Shown piece by piece: positions 35,561 to 48,000 of a stretch of DNA of 64,000 nt. Each line of letters starts with the position of its first letter. The stretch's first letter is position 1. The notes below the pieces were generated by a model. That model was not told the DNA's origin. It searched no databases and was given only the letters and a program-made list of their open reading frames with translations. Location: the NCBI GenBank assembly GCA_025450495.1, contig JANWHI010000070.1, forward strand, positions 1 through 64,000, written 5' to 3'. Position numbers and translations under genes: made by a program. The stretch is from Candidatus Dormiibacter sp. GTDB taxonomy: Bacteria > Chloroflexota > Dormibacteria > UBA8260.

Positions 35561-36751
35561 CTAGCCCTTGATGTCCGTCCAGGCCTGCAGCCAGTCCTGG
35601 TAGCCCTTGCAGACCTTGCCGCGGCTGTCACCGCAGTCAGTCAGCGGCACCTTCCACAGCGACAGGCCGTGCAGGTAGGCGGTGTCGGACACATGGTAGG
35701 TCTGGCAGAAGTTGGCGTCGGTCTTGGCGATGACCGGACATGCCTTGAGGTTGGCGGGAGCCTCACCGAACCATTGCGCAACCTGCGACTGCACCGCCGG
35801 CGTGGTGATCCAGTTCATCCACATGTACATGCAGTTGGGATGCTTGGCTTGCGACGACACCATCCACGTGTCGGACCAACCCGTGGAGCCCTCCTTGGGG
35901 ACGATCGCGGCCACCGGCGTCGGGCTCTTGGGGTCGCCAAGAAGCAGGTTGGTGATCACCTGCCACGTCGTGCCGATGAGTGTGTCCCCGTTGGCGAACG
36001 CGGACTGGGCCTTGGTGTAGTCGGACCAGTACTGCCCGATCACGGTGCGTTGCTGCTTGAGCAGCGCGACCGTCGCCTGGAACTGAGCACTGTCCAACTC
36101 GTAGGGATCGGTGATCTGGAGGTCGGGACGCGTTGACTTCAGGTACAGCGCTGCGTCGGCGATGTAGATGGGATCGTCGTACGCCGTGACGTGGCCCTTG
36201 TACGGCGAGTTCGGATCGAAGACAGCTCCCCAGGAGTCCGGTGCCGGCTGCACCTTGTCGGTGCGGTACATGAGCAGGTTTGCGCCCCAGCCGTGGGGCA
36301 CTCCGTAGTGGACGCCCTGGTATGTGTTGTACGGCTGATCCTTGAGCGACGCGTTGATGTCGGGGTAGTTGGTGAGCAGGTTGGTATTGACCGGCGCTGC
36401 AGCACCGCCGACCATGAGGCGCAGTGTCGCGTTACCCGAGGCAGACACCCCGTCGAACTGCCCGGTCTGCATCAGCGACACCATCTCGTCCGAGGTTCCG
36501 GCGATCGTGGCGTTGGTGATGCACCCGGTCTGCTGCTGGAACGGCGTCACCCAATCGACCGTCTTGTCGTTGGAGCCATTCTCGGCATACCCCGCCCACA
36601 CGATGATGTTGAGGGCGCCCTCGCCCTTGCCGATGCTGGCGGGACCGGTGTTCGCCGGCGCGCTGCCGCCACCGCCGCCGCTCCCGCAGGCGGCCGTGAT
36701 CAGCGCCAGGCAGAGCGCGGCGATCAGGGCTGGGCCGGTTCTTCTGGTCAT
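35561..36751 (-). CDS. potD: Polyamine-binding lipoprotein (PotD-like)
   Basis: 396 residues. A lipoprotein signal (ALIAALCLALITAACGSGGGG) with lipobox Cys near residue 22 is followed by a group 1 extracellular solute-binding protein (LNIIVWAGYAENGS; VTPFQQQTGCITNATIAGTSDEMVSLMQTGQFDGVSASG). It captures polyamines or related cations outside the membrane and delivers them to PotBC. It overlaps potA by four bases. Confidence 0.92.
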   Translation of the reverse strand: MTRRTGPALIAALCLALITAACGSGGGGGSAPANTGPASIGKGEGALNIIVWAGYAENGSNDKTVDWVTPFQQQTGCITNATIAGTSDEMVSLMQTGQFDGVSASGNATLRLMVGGAAAPVNTNLLTNYPDINASLKDQPYNTYQGVHYGVPHGWGANLLMYRTDKVQPAPDSWGAVFDPNSPYKGHVTAYDDPIYIADAALYLKSTRPDLQITDPYELDSAQFQATVALLKQQRTVIGQYWSDYTKAQSAFANGDTLIGTTWQVITNLLLGDPKSPTPVAAIVPKEGSTGWSDTWMVSSQAKHPNCMYMWMNWITTPAVQSQVAQWFGEAPANLKACPVIAKTDANFCQTYHVSDTAYLHGLSLWKVPLTDCGDSRGKVCKGYQDWLQAWTDIKG

Positions 36752-40906: not shown

Positions 40907-41067
40907 GCGCCGGGACGGGGGCCTCGCTCCCTTTCCGTAGCTGAGGTCGGCCAGTCGTTACGGTTTCTTTGCCAGGAAGTCGCCTGCCAAAGCCCCTGAG
41001 GCTCCCCAATTGACGCGTTCCCTCGTCAGCTGCCCTCACGGTGGTCGTCCCTGTGCTTCCTACCCCG

Positions 41068-44000
41068 ATGCCGTTTGTGCGCCGTTCGCTGCGTGTGCTC
41101 GCCGTGGCCGCGTCCCTAGCGTCGCTGGTCGGGGTCGTGGCGCCGCTGGGTGGTTCGGCCGCCGGCGCGCCGGCCAGCGCTGCAGGCATGCGGGACTTCC
41201 GGATCGCCGGCGTTCCCGCCAACCTGCCGGCCGACGTGGGCAGCGGCAGCGGTTTCTGTGGATCGGTGTCAGGCACCTACAGCGGGAGAACGGTGTACGG
41301 CTACAACCTCGGGCCGTCATACCTCAACGTGTTCGCCTGCGGTCCCACTCTGAACCAAGGGTGGAACAACGACCCCTTTGAGTCGGACTTCCAGTGCGTC
41401 GAGTACAGCACCCGCTTCATGTGGGAGGCGTACGGTCTTCGCGCCGCGCCAGGCAATGGGGGCGTGTTCGTGGCCAACAACCACACCCGCTTCCCCTCGA
41501 TCGTGGTGGGCACTCCGTCGCCCGGGAACATCCCGGCCCCCGGTGACGTGGTCAGCCTGTCGGGTGGCGCAGCCAACCCCAACGCGGCTTCGGCGGGGCA
41601 TACCGCGGTGGTCAGCGACGTCTCGCACGTGAACATGGCCACCGGGAACGGCTACATCACCATCGTCGAGGAGAACGACGGCGGTGCTGGAACCGGCCGC
41701 ATCAACGTCTCCAACTGGAGCGAGTCGATGGGCAACCCGCAGTACGCCAACGGGCTGTACTGGTACCCCACGGTCTCCTGGCTAGAGCTTGCGGGAAGCG
41801 CCTCGACGGCCCCCGGCGCGGCCAGCGAGACGAGGGTCTGCGCGACCTGCGCGCCACCTCTGCTGCACCACGGCGGCCCGGTGATGGGAACCGCGACCCT
41901 GGCCTCGATCTACTGGTCGACAGGTCCGGCCGTCACCCCCGGATACCGGAGCATCATCGACGGCTACCTGACCAACGTGTCCTTGAGCGACCCCAACAGC
42001 AACGTGTTCGGCAGCAACCCACTCTACGGTGGCAGTCCGCCGACCACGCCTCCATTCACATTCGCCGGCGGGTTGTCCGACGCATCCCCGCTGCCAGCCG
42101 GTGGATGCGCTCCGGACCCGGGCTATACGACGTGCCTGAGCCGCCCGCAGGTCGAGAATGAGGTCAACCACGTCATCTACTCGCAGGGGTCGGCGCCTGC
42201 GCTGGATCTCGCCCACGTCTATGTTCTGTTCCTGCCCCCGGGCGTCGAGAGCTGCGCGGGCCCGGGCTCGTGCTCGGCGTCCTCGTTCTGCGGTTACCAC
42301 AGCAGCTACACGTACGCGGGGGGCACGGTCCTGTACGCCGTGGTGGCTTATCCGACCGCGAGCACGTGCACCACGGGCCAGTCTCCCAACGGCGACCCGA
42401 TCGCCGACGGTGCCGTCGACACGGTCAGCCACCAGATCAGCGAGACCATCACCGATCCGCTCGGCACTGCCTGGACCGACACCGCCGGCAACGAGATCGG
42501 CGACGAGTGCGCCAATGTGTACGGCGCACCAGTGGGGTCCACCGACGCCACCAAGCCGAAGACCAGCGAGTTCAACCAGCTGATCGGCTCGGGGGCGTAC
42601 TACACGCAGGAGGAGTTCAGCAACTCGGCGTACTTCGCCACCGGCAACGGTTGCATCCAGAGCCCCAGCCAACAGGTACCAGGCGCAGGCAACGGTGTCA
42701 GCGCGACGGGAAGTCCGGCGCAGGTCCCCAACGACGGCTTAAGCACGTCGACCGTCACCGCCACAGTGCGGTCTGTCCAGCAGCAGCCGGTCAGCGGCGA
42801 CCGGGTTCATTTCACAACCTTCACCCGGTCGGGCACCTGCGGCACGGTGAACCCGACCGACGTCACCACCGACGCCTCCGGCCATGCGGCCACGACGTAC
42901 ACGGCGTCGACCGCGGACGCGACCTGCAGCGTCGTCGCCACCGAGGCGACGACGGGTAGCAACGGTCGGGCTGTGATCACCCAGGGCGTCGCCGGCGTGT
43001 ACCACGCGCTGACACCCGTCCGCGTCGCTGATACCCGTTCTGGGTCGGGGCTGCCCCTGGCCGGTCAGTCTCTCAGCAGCGGCCAGAGCGACAAGCTGCC
43101 GGTCGCCGGAAGCAACGGCGTTCCTGCCGACGCGACCACGGCGGTGCTCAATGTCACCGTCACCAACCCGACATCGCCCTCCTATCTCACCGTCTATCCC
43201 GGTGGCACGGCCGCCCCCCTGGCCTCCAACCTCAACTTCGCCGCCGGCCAGACCGTGGCCAACCTGGTCACCGTTCCCATCGGTGGCGACGGCACCGTCA
43301 GGTTCTTCAACCATGCCGGCACCACCGACGTCGTGGTTGACCTCGAGGGATACATGCAGCGCGGAGCCGGACCGGCTGGGCTCTACCACCCGGCGGTGCC
43401 CAGCCGCATCACCGACACGAGGCCCGGCTCCGGTCAGGCCAACGCCGGCGCCTCGCTCGGCAAAAGCGCCACGCTGATGGTCCAGGTCGCCGGTGCCGGC
43501 GGCGTACCCGCCAGCGGTGTGTCGGCCGTGGTCCTCAACCTGACCGCCGTCGGCGCCAGCGCCCCCAGCTTCCTGACCGCCTTCCCGTCGGACGCGGTCA
43601 TGCCGCTGGCGTCGAACCTGAACTTTCTGCCCGGCCAGGTCGTGCCCAACCGGGTCATCGTCCCGCTCGGGGCGGACGGCCGGGTGGCCGTCTACAACCA
43701 TCTCGGTGGCGTCGACGTGGTGGTCGACGTCGCCGGCTGGTTCACCAGCGGCAGCGACCCGCAGGCCACCGGGTTCCGCTTCACGCCGATCGCCCCCACC
43801 CGCGTCGTCGACACCCGCGCGCTGTCCGGTCAGCCGCTGGCCGGCGCGACCCTCAGCACCGGTGGGTTCGACTCCACGTCCGTCGCTTCGACGGCGAGCC
43901 TTCCCGCCAACGCCGCCGGTTTCGCCGCCAACGTCACCGTTGCCGGCACCACCGGGGCAAGCTACCTCACGGTCTACCCGGCCGGCGCCGCGATGCCCAC

Positions 44001-44142
44001 GAGCTCGGACCTCAACTGGGTCGCGGGCCAGATCGCGTCAAACATGCTAGTCAGCGGTCTCGGCACGGGCGGGTCGATCACCCTGTACAACCACTGGGGA
44101 CAGAGCGACGTGATCGTCGACCTCTGCGGCTTCTGGTCCTGA
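41068..44142 (+). CDS. Secreted multidomain protein: CHAP, zincin-like, Big_1 and three C-terminal repeats
   Basis: 1,024 residues from ATG 41068 (GTG 41041 also possible). Signal peptide to about residue 38. CHAP amidase domain about 55-245 with Cys110 (FQCVEYSTRFMW), His178 (AGHTAVVSDV) and Glu201 (ITIVEEND). A PHI-1/EXORDIUM-like or zincin-like domain at 270-534 has SHQISETITDPLG and GNEIGDEC. A bacterial Ig (Big_1) domain lies at 536-636. Three repeats of about 129 residues follow from 644, 772 and 902 (R(V/I).DTR.. G; LTVYP; ASNLN; V.NLV.V; VDVVVDVAGW). It is probably a cell-wall hydrolase or adhesin exposed outside the cell. No operon partners. Confidence 0.8.
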   Translation: MPFVRRSLRVLAVAASLASLVGVVAPLGGSAAGAPASAAGMRDFRIAGVPANLPADVGSGSGFCGSVSGTYSGRTVYGYNLGPSYLNVFACGPTLNQGWNNDPFESDFQCVEYSTRFMWEAYGLRAAPGNGGVFVANNHTRFPSIVVGTPSPGNIPAPGDVVSLSGGAANPNAASAGHTAVVSDVSHVNMATGNGYITIVEENDGGAGTGRINVSNWSESMGNPQYANGLYWYPTVSWLELAGSASTAPGAASETRVCATCAPPLLHHGGPVMGTATLASIYWSTGPAVTPGYRSIIDGYLTNVSLSDPNSNVFGSNPLYGGSPPTTPPFTFAGGLSDASPLPAGGCAPDPGYTTCLSRPQVENEVNHVIYSQGSAPALDLAHVYVLFLPPGVESCAGPGSCSASSFCGYHSSYTYAGGTVLYAVVAYPTASTCTTGQSPNGDPIADGAVDTVSHQISETITDPLGTAWTDTAGNEIGDECANVYGAPVGSTDATKPKTSEFNQLIGSGAYYTQEEFSNSAYFATGNGCIQSPSQQVPGAGNGVSATGSPAQVPNDGLSTSTVTATVRSVQQQPVSGDRVHFTTFTRSGTCGTVNPTDVTTDASGHAATTYTASTADATCSVVATEATTGSNGRAVITQGVAGVYHALTPVRVADTRSGSGLPLAGQSLSSGQSDKLPVAGSNGVPADATTAVLNVTVTNPTSPSYLTVYPGGTAAPLASNLNFAAGQTVANLVTVPIGGDGTVRFFNHAGTTDVVVDLEGYMQRGAGPAGLYHPAVPSRITDTRPGSGQANAGASLGKSATLMVQVAGAGGVPASGVSAVVLNLTAVGASAPSFLTAFPSDAVMPLASNLNFLPGQVVPNRVIVPLGADGRVAVYNHLGGVDVVVDVAGWFTSGSDPQATGFRFTPIAPTRVVDTRALSGQPLAGATLSTGGFDSTSVASTASLPANAAGFAANVTVAGTTGASYLTVYPAGAAMPTSSDLNWVAGQIASNMLVSGLGTGGSITLYNHWGQSDVIVDLCGFWS

Positions 44143-44146
44143 TCGC

Positions 44147-44572
44147 CTAGACGCGACCGGCGGCGCTGCCCTTCAAGTCCTCGAGCAGTTCCCTGACTCG
44201 AGCGTGGATGTCATCGCGGATGCGCCGCACCGCAGCCAGCGAGTGCCCCGCGGGATCGTCGACCTCCCAGTCAAGGTAGCGCTTGCCCCGGTGGATGGGA
44301 CACGCATCACCGCAGCCCATGGTGATGACCACGTCTGCCGAATCGACGGCTTCGCCGGTGAGCGGTTTGGGCAACTCTTTGGAGATGTCGATGCCCAACT
44401 CCGCCATCGCTGCAACCACTGCCGGGTTGAGGCGGTCGGCGGGTTCCGATCCGGCCGACCGAACGCTCACCGATCCGCCGGCGTGGCGCTCGAGCAGGGC
44501 GGCGGCCATCTGTGACCGCCCCGCGTTGTGCACGCAGACGAAGAGAACGGTCGGTGCGGATGTCGTGTTCAC
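44147..44572 (-). CDS. arsC: Arsenate reductase ArsC (LMW-PTP type)
   Basis: 141 residues of the low-molecular-weight phosphatase-like ArsC family. The P-loop is C13-VHNAG-R19, and a second redox Cys pair lies in TMGCGDACPIHRGKRYLDWEVDDP. It reduces As(V) to As(III). The GTG at 44572 overlaps the aquaporin stop (GTGA). It is the last gene of the arsenic operon. Confidence 0.93.
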   Translation of the reverse strand: MNTTSAPTVLFVCVHNAGRSQMAAALLERHAGGSVSVRSAGSEPADRLNPAVVAAMAELGIDISKELPKPLTGEAVDSADVVITMGCGDACPIHRGKRYLDWEVDDPAGHSLAAVRRIRDDIHARVRELLEDLKGSAAGRV

Positions 44573-45303
44573 TTCGACGGGCCGCCGGATGCCTGGTGTG
44601 GGACGAGCACCTCGCCCGCGCGAGAGCGCGCATCCACAAAAAGTGTGCGGATCAGCAGCCACGCCAGCGCGCCGCCAGCAAGCTGTGCGCCGATGAACGG
44701 CGCGACCGACCCGGGGGCGATGCCGGCGAACGTGTCGGACAGCATGCGACCGACCGTCACTGCGGGGTTGGCGAAACTCGTCGACGACGTGAAGAAGTAG
44801 GCCGCGCTGATGTACGCACCAACAGCCAGCGGCGCGGTGGCGGCCGACCCCCGGCGGCTGATGCCGAAGATGACCATCAGCAATCCGAGGGTGGCCACCA
44901 CCTCGCCGAGCCCGATGCCACCGTTCCACCGATCATGGGTTGAGATGGTGACCGCGGTCAGCGAGAACATCAGGTTGGCAACGATGACTCCGCAGATGGC
45001 GCCCAGCACCTGGGCCACCACATAGGCAGGCACGTCCCGCCAGCGCAGTCCGCCGAACGCAGCGTCGACCACTGACACAACAGGGTTGAGGTGGGCACCG
45101 GACACGGACCCGACGGCGAGGATGATCGCCGTCAGCGCCGCGCCTGTCGCCACCGCATTTTCGAGCAGCGCCAGGCCCCGATCGCCGGGGCTGAGTCGTT
45201 GTGCTGCGATCCCCGACCCGACCACCGCGATGAGCAGGAACGCTGTGCCGATCAGCTCAGCCGCGGCCCGCCGAAGCACATGCGCAGCGGTCAGCTCGCG
45301 CAA
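44569..45303 (-). CDS. Aquaglyceroporin (MIP family), probable arsenite channel
   Basis: 244 residues with six helices and both pore motifs, NPVVSV (NPA variant) and NPAVTV. In ars operons such channels let As(III) made by ArsC leave down its gradient, replacing an ArsB/Acr3 pump, as in rhizobial aqpS-arsC. No arsB or acr3 is seen here. It starts at TTG 45303 (13-base overlap with arsI) or GTG 45279. Confidence 0.9.
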   Translation of the reverse strand: MRELTAAHVLRRAAAELIGTAFLLIAVVGSGIAAQRLSPGDRGLALLENAVATGAALTAIILAVGSVSGAHLNPVVSVVDAAFGGLRWRDVPAYVVAQVLGAICGVIVANLMFSLTAVTISTHDRWNGGIGLGEVVATLGLLMVIFGISRRGSAATAPLAVGAYISAAYFFTSSTSFANPAVTVGRMLSDTFAGIAPGSVAPFIGAQLAGGALAWLLIRTLFVDARSRAGEVLVPHQASGGPSK

Positions 45304-45728
45304 CAGGCTTGCTGCCGCGCCGCGGCTTCCCCGGCCGCATCGCCCGAGAAGTCACACGACGCGGTGGGCGCATCGGCCAGCACGGTGTACACCTCCCATC
45401 GCGTGTCCGCGCCGCTCACCCACACCTTGTCCTGCAAGGCGTGACAGCACGCGACGCCGTTCTCGACGTCAGCGTCGAGGCCCTGCGCGGCCAGCCGCCG
45501 GGTCGCCGCCACCACATCCTCGGTCGAGTCGACCTCGACACCGAGATGGTTGAGGCTGCCGGCGTGAGCGGGGTTCTCGAACAGCACGAGCTTGAGCGGG
45601 GGCTCCGCGACGATGAAATTGGCGTATCCGGGCCGCCGTTTCGCCGCCGCCACGGCGAACAGCTTCTCGTAGAAGAGCACGGCTTCGTCGATGTCGCTCA
45701 CGTTCAGCGCCAGCTGGACTCGGGACAT
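45291..45728 (-). CDS. arsI: ArsI/CadI-type VOC metalloenzyme
   Basis: 145 residues of the ArsI/CadI family. Expected metal ligands are present as Gln5, His61 and Glu112, and the vicinal thiols of organoarsenical lyases as Cys94-Cys95 (NGVACCHAL). ArsI cleaves the C-As bond of trivalent methylarsenicals; the closely related CadI is cadmium-induced. The C-terminus carries more cysteines (CDFSG; QQACCAS). The ATG at 45728 lies one base after the stop of the Cys-rich micro-ORF (TGA-G-ATG), so translation is probably coupled to it. Confidence 0.88.
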   Translation of the reverse strand: MSRVQLALNVSDIDEAVLFYEKLFAVAAAKRRPGYANFIVAEPPLKLVLFENPAHAGSLNHLGVEVDSTEDVVAATRRLAAQGLDADVENGVACCHALQDKVWVSGADTRWEVYTVLADAPTASCDFSGDAAGEAAARQQACCAS

Positions 45729-45729
45729 C

Positions 45730-45780
45730 TCAACAGCCGCATCCGCAGGGGCACGTTCCACACGGGCAGTCACATGGCAT
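45730..45780 (-). CDS. Cys-rich 16-residue peptide, metallothionein-like
   Basis: The ATG at 45780 opens a 17-codon frame reading MPCDCPCGTCPCGCGC, with seven cysteines at 3, 5, 7, 10, 12, 14 and 16. A full-length Shine-Dalgarno (AGGAGGTGA, 45792-45784) stands six bases from the ATG, the best in the window. The stop lies one base before the arsI ATG. It is the first frame of the arsenic operon. CxC/CxxC spacing is that of metal- or arsenite-binding peptides. I know of no described family. It could instead be only a leader whose translation opens arsI. Confidence 0.6.
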   Translation of the reverse strand: MPCDCPCGTCPCGCGC

Positions 45781-45792
45781 GAGTCACCTCCT

Positions 45793-45808
45793 ATCGACGG
45801 ACGTCGAT
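45793..45808. promoter_or_regulatory. Operator candidate of the ars operon
   Basis: ATCGAC-GGAC-GTCGAT is a perfect 6-4-6 inverted repeat directly adjoining the Shine-Dalgarno of the Cys-rich ORF and about +7 to +22 from the predicted start of transcription. This is a typical place for ArsR binding. Confidence 0.5.
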
Positions 45809-45820
45809 CTATCGGGGGAG

Positions 45821-45850
45821 ATCCTAGCGCGGTCCATCGAAGTATGTCAA
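45821..45850 (-). promoter_or_regulatory. Promoter of the ars operon
   Basis: Minus strand: consensus TTGACA at 45850-45845, 18 bases, TAGGAT at 45826-45821. Transcription should start near 45814 and give a 34-base leader before the Cys-rich ORF. Confidence 0.65.
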
Positions 45851-45867: not shown

Positions 45868-46284
45868 ATGGACCTGGCCCCCGGCCCGGCAACCGCGGTC
45901 GACATCGAGCCGAGCAAACATGACCCCACCGCAGTGCGTCTGACCACGCTGACCAGCGTCCCGGAGCGGGTCAAGGGCTGCTGCCAGGCCGTGGCGCCGC
46001 CGCTCCCCGACGGGCGCGCCATCGAGCTGGCCGGCGTGCACAGGGCGCTTGCCGACCCCACCCGCGTCCAGATGGTGCACATCCTGGCTGCCGCTCCCGA
46101 GCCCGTCTGTGTGTGCGACTTCACCGCCGCCTTCGACCTCGGCCAGCCGACCATCAGCCATCATCTCGCCAAGCTCAGAGATGCCGGATTGGTGATCAGC
46201 TTCAAACGCGGGATCTGGGCTTTCTACCAGCTCAACCCGGAGATGTCCGAGCCGGCGCGGAGCGCCGTCTCGCTGATCCGATAG
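45868..46284 (+). CDS. arsR: ArsR family metalloregulator
   Basis: 138 residues. The winged-helix core is LAGVHRALADPTRVQMVHILAAAPEPVCVCDFTAAFDLGQPTISHHLAKLRDAGLV. The CVCDF box in the DNA-binding helix region and an extra N-terminal Cys pair (VKGCCQAV) are likely As(III)/Sb(III) ligands. It should repress the divergent ars operon until arsenite binds. It starts at ATG 45868; ATGs at 45844 and 45850 would lie inside the promoter. Confidence 0.92.
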   Translation: MDLAPGPATAVDIEPSKHDPTAVRLTTLTSVPERVKGCCQAVAPPLPDGRAIELAGVHRALADPTRVQMVHILAAAPEPVCVCDFTAAFDLGQPTISHHLAKLRDAGLVISFKRGIWAFYQLNPEMSEPARSAVSLIR

Positions 46285-46345
46285 GGATCCGGAACACCCG
46301 CCTTCGGTATTGTCTGAGCCCGACAGCTCAGGAGGAGGAGAGCCC

Positions 46346-48000
46346 GTGAGCACTGATACGCAGACACCGGCTCGGGTTGATTCGCCGGCTCCCTGGCGGG
46401 CGGCGGCGGAGGACGATATCGCGGCGCTGGCGGCCAGCAAAGACACCTGGGCGCGCATGCCGATCGCCGGCAGGATCGAGCTGCTGCGAACGCTTGCGTC
46501 CAACACCTCTTGCCACGCTGAGCGCTGGGTGCGTGCCGCCTGCGGCGCCAAGGGCTTGGAGCTGACCTCGACTCTGGCCGGTGAGGAGTGGACGTCGGGC
46601 CGTGGGCGCTTCTGTTCAGTATCAACCGGCTGATCGAGACGTTGACCGCCGTCGCCGAGAGCGCACACCGCGTCTGCCGAGCAGGCGCGTGCATTCGCGC
46701 CCCGATGGCCAGGTCGTTGTTGACGTCTTCCCGCAGAGCACCTGGGACAGGCTGCTGCTCAACGGCGTCAGCGCGCAGGTCTGGATGCAGCACGGGGTCA
46801 CCGCGCGCAACCTCGCCGACACCATGGCGGTGTTCTACAAGCAGCGCCGACCCCAGGGGAGCGGTGGTGCTTGTGCTTGGAGCTGGGAACATCGCCGGCA
46901 TCGCTCCGCTCGACGTGCTCTACAAGCTGTTCGCAGAGGGACTGGTGTGTCTACTCAAGATGAACCCTGTCAATGAATATCTCGGCCCGATCTTCGAGGA
47001 CATCTTCGCCGACCTGGTCTCCGCGGGATTCGTCCGCTTTGCGTACGGCGGCGCCGAGGCCGGCGAGCGCCTCACCAGGCACGTGGGCATCGACGAGATT
47101 CACGTCACCGGTAGCAGCCGCACCCACGCCGCCATCGTCTTCGGCACGGGTGACGAGGGTGCGGCGCGCAAGGCGCGCACCGAACCGATCAGCACCAAGC
47201 CGATGAGCAGCGAGCTCGGCAACGTGAGCCCGACCATCATCGTGCCCGGACCGTGGTCGCAGCGCGATCTCCGTTTCCAGGCAGCCCATATCGCCACCCA
47301 GAAGCTGCACAACGCCGGCTTCAACTGCATCGCCGCCCACGTGGTGATCACCAAGCAGGGCTGGTCGCTCGGCGAGCCGTTGCTGCGCGAGGTCGCCCGG
47401 GTGATGTCGGCAACGGCCATGCGGCCGGCCTATTACCCCGGTGCGGCTCAGCGTCAGCAGTCGTTGGCGCAGGCCCATCCGCGAGCAGAGACACTCGGCG
47501 GTGACGACGATGCGCCGACAACGCTGATCACCGGGCTGGACAGCAACGATGCGGCTGAGGTGTGTTTTCGCAGCGCGTTCGCGGCGGTTCTGTGCGCCAC
47601 CAGCCTCAGCGCCGGGGACGTCGACGACTACCTCGAGCGCGCCGTGGATTTCTGCAACGAGTCGCTGTGGGGTACGCTGGGGGCCAATATCATCATCCAC
47701 CCCACCACGGCGCGGTTGCATGCGGCCGCGCTCGATCGCGCCATCGCACGACTTCGCTACGGCTGCATCGGGGTCAACGCATGGACAGGCGTCGGCTTCC
47801 TGCTCACCCAGGCGAGCTGGGGTGCGTTCCCCGGCTACCCACGCAGCCTTGCTCACGGTCGGCCGACGCTGCTGCCCACCCCGCCGTGGTTCGTGACCCA
47901 TCGCCGCGCGCACCTGGTCGGTGAACAACTCACCCGTTTCGAGGCCGATCACGCCATCAGGCGCGTCCCCGGCATCTTCGCGGCGGCGCTTCGCAGTTGA
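46346..48000 (+). pseudogene. Aldehyde dehydrogenase family protein, three frameshifts
   Basis: Starts at GTG 46346 after AGGAGGAG. Similarity runs in one frame to about 46590 (LAGEEWTSG), a second frame for PWALLFSINRLIETL, a third for about 46690-46855 (DGQVVVDVFPQSTWDRLL; VWMQHGVTARNLADTM), then back to the second to the stop at 48000 (VVLVLGAGNIAGIAPLDVL; GNVSPTIIVPGPWS; catalytic Cys in HNAGFNCIAA). Together this makes a complete protein of about 550 residues. Either the gene is recently inactivated or this 270-base stretch has base-call errors. Confidence 0.8.

Follow-up and report, generated by a model that had tools for sequence, protein, structure and literature searches.

The window, that is, the whole 64-kb stretch of DNA analysed, carries an arsenic resistance operon on its minus strand whose first frame encodes a 16-residue peptide, MPCDCPCGTCPCGCGC, with Cys at 7 of the 16 positions (Table 1). 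An earlier, sequence-only reading had pointed out this frame, and its particulars were recovered on re-derivation from the sequence: the Cys content, an AGGAGG Shine-Dalgarno (SD) sequence at 6-base spacing, and a stop codon separated from the arsI ATG by a single G. It is the sole SD-preceded ORF of 6-45 codons in the window that has 4 or more Cys amounting to at least 22% of its residues; when the SD requirement is dropped (at least 25% Cys), one additional Cys-rich ORF is obtained, at 35641-35694. The downstream order of ArsI, an aquaporin and ArsC proposed in the same reading holds as well, with the arsI product well above the cutoff of the ArsI/CadI family model (NF041414, 174.9 bits, cutoff 116) and the aquaporin-like and arsC-like products matching below their curated cutoffs. 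The presence of arsI together with arsR and arsC (the latter by its below-cutoff matches) is that of an ArsI-type ars operon. The five nearest matches of ArsI, with 67-78% identity over the best segment, are all from Candidatus Dormiibacterota MAGs.

Table 1. Features of the ars locus, numbered from the first letter of the window
Feature	Position	Strand	Details
Operator-like repeat 1, TTGACATACTTCGAT	45836..45850	-	overlaps -35 hexamer; predicted ArsR binding
Sigma-70-type promoter, TTGACA-18 bp-TAGGAT	45821..45850	-	1 found, shuffle mean 0.1
Operator-like repeat 2, ATCGACGTCCGTCGAT	45793..45808	-	between promoter and SD; probable ArsR box
Shine-Dalgarno AGGAGG	45787..45792	-	6 bases 5' of peptide ATG
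Cys-rich 16-aa peptide gene, MPCDCPCGTCPCGCGC	45730..45780	-	ATG 45778-45780, TGA 45730-45732
arsI, ArsI/CadI family, 145 aa	45291..45728	-	ATG at 45728
Aquaporin-like (MIP family) gene	44569..45303	-	candidate arsenite channel; TIGR00861, 86.7 bits, below cutoff 171
arsC-like arsenate reductase gene	44147..44566	-	TIGR02689 and NF010053, both below cutoff
Divergent arsR, ArsR/SmtB family	45868..46284	+	NF033788 above cutoff; CC near N-terminus, VCVCDF

The promoter in Table 1 is the only sigma-70-like site within 44.0-46.4 kb and is 40 bases away from the peptide ATG. Together with the operator-like repeats it lies beside arsR in the window sequence. When the operator region was compared over 19 usable rows (row L082, mis-oriented, was left out), ATCGA was found 28-34 bases 5' of the start in 17 of them, with a variant in L167 and none in L210. 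The SD of the relatives is partly a matter of selection, because the scan that found most of them demanded one. On either side of the locus, the plus strand holds two further items. The gene beside arsR (46310-48000) is split into overlapping ORFs at 46310-46633 and 46588-48000, with 10 stops when one frame is read through, i.e. a frameshift, a decayed gene or an assembly error, and the gene adjoining arsC (41041-44142) encodes a 1033-aa protein with a secretion-signal-like N-terminus and repeated stretches.

Related genomes were grouped under labels assigned in the analysis, namely Dormibacteria for the class of genome G005, Chloroflexota for its phylum and Acidimicrobiia for the class of G457. 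The Dormibacteria sample (110 genomes of the nearest relatives' class, with MAGs among the relatives) contains arsI in 12 genomes. Searching directly upstream of arsI in relatives, a check put forward in the sequence-only reading, bore the peptide out in large part: 10 of the 12 have a frame containing 4 or more Cys, while G001 keeps the frame with 2 Cys only and the peptide is absent upstream of arsI in G406. Additional peptides, MACDCGCDCDGTCDCDCDC and MGCDCGCDCDCTCDGDCDCDC, are encoded at a separate arsR locus in G001 and in G002, the latter with 5 Cys at arsI. A DNA-pattern search over the 110 genomes matched 8 genomes, vs 4 matches for the reversed control pattern; seven of the eight are at ars loci and the remaining one (L116) looks like chance.

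A broader count was made around arsR, for which the 110 Dormibacteria genomes gave matches at 88 places, spread over 83 genomes. The set examined comprises 72 loci (467 kb), made up of 71 of the 88 ArsR places, mostly the best, and the arsI locus L209. At a strict setting, which required an SD, a length of 8-40 codons, 5 Cys or more and a Cys share of 28% or more, 15 Cys-rich ORFs were obtained vs 0 in each of five first-order Markov resamples; relaxed settings gave 17 (resamples 0, 1, 1, 4, 2) and 19 (resamples 0, 1, 2, 2, 0). All but one of the 15 strict ORFs are centred no more than 200 nt away from a match to arsR, arsI, arsM or arsN; the zone so defined makes up 7.6% of the sequence and contains 122 of the 1260 SD-led short ORFs overall. 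The remaining ORF, in L157, has its start 215 bases away from an arsN-like match. This clustering is peculiar to Cys and is absent for Arg (3 of 62 in the same zone), Ser (3 of 48), Ala (4 of 28) and Pro (0 of 12), the counts for rarer residues being 1 of 4 for Gly, 0 of 3 for Thr, 1 of 2 for Asp, and 0 of 2 each for Val and Leu. Peptides were accepted at 18 of the 72 loci under a relaxed setting, a nineteenth (L172) being chance-looking, and the majority of the arsR-arsM loci of Dormibacteria are without one.

The 18 accepted copies differ in their placement: nine precede arsI, four precede arsM (L153, L154, L155, L169), one follows arsM, and four stand alone opposite arsR. The copies before arsI lie mostly 1 base from it, as in the window, with distances of 2 bases in L158 and L171 and 7 in L209. 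In L210 the peptide gene comes after arsM and closes the operon, with a terminator-like hairpin behind it (1 found, 0.2 expected). The stand-alone copies (L151, L157, L168, L190) have no ars gene behind them; among the neighbours listed, the next nameable genes in L151 and L157 are a convergent hydrolase and arsB, while the L168 copy ends 12 bases short of a convergent exonuclease-family gene and the L190 copy is followed by 309 bases to the next gene picked on the same strand. A possible arsM start shares bases with the peptide stop in L153 and L155 (ATGGCTGA), which hints at coupled translation there.

Codon substitution patterns were compared over 13 codons in seven close peptides (the window, L160, L167, L209, L210, L153 and L154; L158 was omitted as less alike). 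Pooled, they give pS of 0.67 and pN of 0.07, i.e. a pN/pS of 0.11, vs 3.7 and 4.9 in the other frames, values that serve as descriptions and not as p-values, given the small number of synonymous sites (about 8 per pair), the saturation of some pairs and the non-independence of the pairs. The mostly synonymous change, seen in a check of the kind (dN/dS) proposed in the sequence-only reading, indicates that purifying selection is acting on the peptide frame. The residues between the Cys (D, P, G, T) are kept in this comparison just as the Cys are; one Cys is replaced by Arg in L209. Peptides of the DCGCDCD type likewise show pS of 0.37 and pN of 0.09 (three ungapped of five).

The same comparison bears on where ArsI begins, an upstream N-terminus from GTG 45774 in the +1 frame having been named as an outcome that would refute the peptide gene. 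This start is not supported: in the four arsI-linked copies pN/pS is 0.11 in the peptide frame vs 2.5 in the arsI (+1) frame and 4.9 in the third, and the +1 value is the 3.7 given above in the seven-peptide set. A frameshift fusion of peptide and ArsI was also discarded, the frame relation being +1 in most loci and +2 in L158 and L171. The peptide gene of L001 ends in CTTTGAC, which we take to resemble the prfB site.

Taken together, these comparisons suggest genuine genes that are under selection and have come to lie in arsenic operons repeatedly, most likely for arsenic binding. The sequence-only reading had left the function between a chelator and a leader peptide; a real gene is strongly supported and the chelator is favoured, whereas a general leader role is contradicted by the stand-alone and operon-last copies. 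As a leader, the peptide would let ribosomes stall on its Cys codons, either at low cysteine or through an arsenic-bound nascent chain, and so attenuate arsI or couple its expression. Its position at the head of the transcript, immediately before arsI in the window and in most arsI-linked copies, is consistent with this, as is the lack of an SD for arsI on inspection of the window, where the placement fits translational coupling. In the window, however, no terminator-like site is found within 44.0-46.4 kb, and the leader RNA folds no better than its shuffles (z 0.16; 113 of 200 shuffles as good). Conservation extends to the residues that separate the Cys (D, P, G and T), which also speaks against a leader. 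An attenuator lies upstream of the gene it regulates, which is the case in the window and in the copies leading arsI or arsM but not in L151, L157, L168, L190 and L210, and the peptides after arsM or arsI in L249, L310, L312, L317 and L351 precede no ars gene either, although a holB-like frame begins 28 bases downstream of the peptide in L249. A general leader role was rejected because the five stand-alone or last-gene copies are unexplained by it and because the window shows neither a terminator nor a special fold, and we regard the leader as an unlikely account of the peptide. Poly-cysteine leaderless short ORFs of mycobacteria, reportedly subject to attenuation-type control (Canestrari et al., 2020), resemble the window peptide in being short, rich in Cys codons and at the head of an operon. 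The present genes differ in that they have an SD, alternate Cys with conserved D, P and G, show no attenuator structure in the window and are in some copies alone or last in the operon.

The peptide could also be a micro-metallothionein whose main ligand is a metal other than arsenic (Cd, Zn or Cu), or a general thiol buffer, produced from the ars operon on account of a common stress. Cys-rich peptides bind many thiophilic metals, and the family model matched by the enzyme is itself named ArsI/CadI. Against this, the family-named neighbours are arsenic genes (ArsM above cutoff, ArsN1-like and ArsB-like below), next to genes that are unrelated, and the 20 proteins scanned from among the neighbours include no Cd, Cu or Zn transporter. 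We consider another main ligand improbable. That the frame is a chance ORF or a non-coding element is very unlikely: it is indeed very short and has no convincing copy at 74 arsI loci outside Dormibacteria, but the codon test and the Cys-specific clustering, with no such ORF in any strict resample, disfavour this strongly. A precursor of a modified, RiPP-like metallophore, to which a short Cys-rich peptide might belong, is barely credible, as no modifying enzyme is present among the named neighbours and no division into leader and core is apparent.

Our preferred reading, which we consider probable, is that the frame is a genuine gene whose product is a micro-metallothionein inducible by arsenic, its translation, induction and arsenic binding being predicted from its features. 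Trivalent arsenic would inactivate ArsR and thereby release the divergent promoter, assuming that ArsR controls it, and the peptide would then be made from its strong SD. Its closely spaced Cys (CxC and CxxC, and CC in relatives) could hold As(III) or methylarsenite, the substrate of ArsI, as thiolates, and the peptide would in this way buffer free arsenic and might present it to ArsI, ArsM, the aquaporin or ArsB. With a single base between the peptide stop and the arsI ATG, translation of arsI is probably coupled to that of the peptide, so that peptide levels would not fall below those of the enzyme.

In its small size and very high Cys content with CxC, CxxC and CC spacing, and in the gene for an ArsR/SmtB-family sensor adjoining it, the peptide resembles metallothioneins, including bacterial SmtA-type proteins (PMC10612145) and the 26-residue metallothionein of Neurospora crassa (PMC4755600). 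Most Dormibacteria copies are shorter than the N. crassa protein, with 13-21 residues; they also differ from metallothioneins in being arsenic-operon genes with predicted binding and, among nine relatives of 20-44 aa searched against Pfam (the window peptide is below the 20-aa limit), with no meaningful match, the one hit having an E-value of 0.15. Six relatives of 26-44 aa had no match in NCBIfam, and a PDB sequence search with the 21-aa peptide of L151 returned none; the 44-aa L322 peptide gave a match to a single unnamed protein cluster, with 100% identity. An Rfam scan at its E-value setting gave two weak matches, both away from the peptide. Phytochelatins and synthetic (Glu-Cys)n peptides alternate an acidic residue with Cys, and so do the peptides of L151, L152, L157 and L161. 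Unlike phytochelatins, which act on cadmium and As(III) (PMC9917255), they are encoded by ordinary codons beside arsR and have no synthase. No description of such peptides was found in the titles and abstract openings covered by a literature search, most subscription journals lying outside it.

Outside Dormibacteria, Cys-rich peptides were found at 5 of 32 arsR loci in the rest of the phylum, plus one that is chance-looking (resamples 0, 1, 0, 0, 1). In a second class of the phylum, that of G168, where 30 of 62 arsR places were examined as loci, they are present at 9 of the 30, with 0 in five resamples; four of these nine come from genomes already counted among the five above. Six of the nine belong to a CC family (e.g. 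MSAANEPCCPEPCCPDPECCPPGEEPCC; pooled pN/pS 0.33), whose members lie before arsM, after arsM or after arsR. L257 holds a Cys-rich peptide in a further class, and a convincing one is present at 1 of 6 arsM loci from the class that includes G022. Convincing peptides were absent from 12 further arsR loci (L294-L305), from the positions upstream of arsI at the 74 loci outside Dormibacteria (4 chance-looking ORFs) and from 30 Actinomycetota arsM loci (1 chance-looking ORF; 0 in five resamples). In Acidimicrobiia, 30 loci gave two candidates, MSDAYDPCCDDEGCCTDDSCC directly after arsI (L351:2318-2383, plus strand) and VRIHRQGSGCCDGGSGCCCC opposite arsR (L362:1845-1907, plus strand). Their number is not clearly above chance and, since the resamples gave 0, 0, 0, 0 and 2, it is only their placement that favours them; the main reading is independent of this evidence. 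Separate origins are likely for some peptide types because these differ so much from one another.

On this wider material, we lean towards the view that Dormibacteria and at least one further class of the phylum, and perhaps some Actinomycetota, encode in their arsenic operons a hidden, repeatedly acquired class of ribosomally made micro-metallothioneins that are 13 to about 45 residues long and specialised for trivalent arsenic. Such peptides would be an encoded counterpart of phytochelatins, buffering arsenite or methylarsenite and handing it to ArsI, ArsM or efflux. Routine gene annotation does not look for genes this short, and its length limits would have caused the class to be missed. 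Bacterial arsenic resistance is usually described in terms of a sensor, a reductase, a methylase, a lyase and pumps. A thiol peptide encoded in the operon as one of its regular components would bring chelation into this scheme and, more speculatively, might explain how arsenic is presented to ArsM or ArsI in glutathione-free bacteria. To our knowledge, the class would include the shortest metallothionein-like genes. The peptides also illustrate that genes as short as about 16 codons can be detected and then examined by codon statistics, and they offer compact peptides for arsenic sensors and sorbents.

The ArsI proteins of several loci (L156, L149, L150, L160, L167, L171, L209, L351) themselves end in C-terminal tails with varied Cys motifs, and L156 has such a tail yet no peptide. 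The tails share CC motifs with the peptides of the same operons; the peptide is a separate gene, and a tail-like action in trans would be speculation. In a second kind of ars locus of Dormibacteria (L151 and L157, also L149, L152 and L161), the genes opposite the peptide are arsR and one for an ArsN1-like acetyltransferase; a tyrosine-phosphatase-family gene and arsB are often close by. L149 in addition encodes a CoA-disulfide-reductase-like flavoprotein, to which tblastn matches were obtained in L210, L214 and L204.
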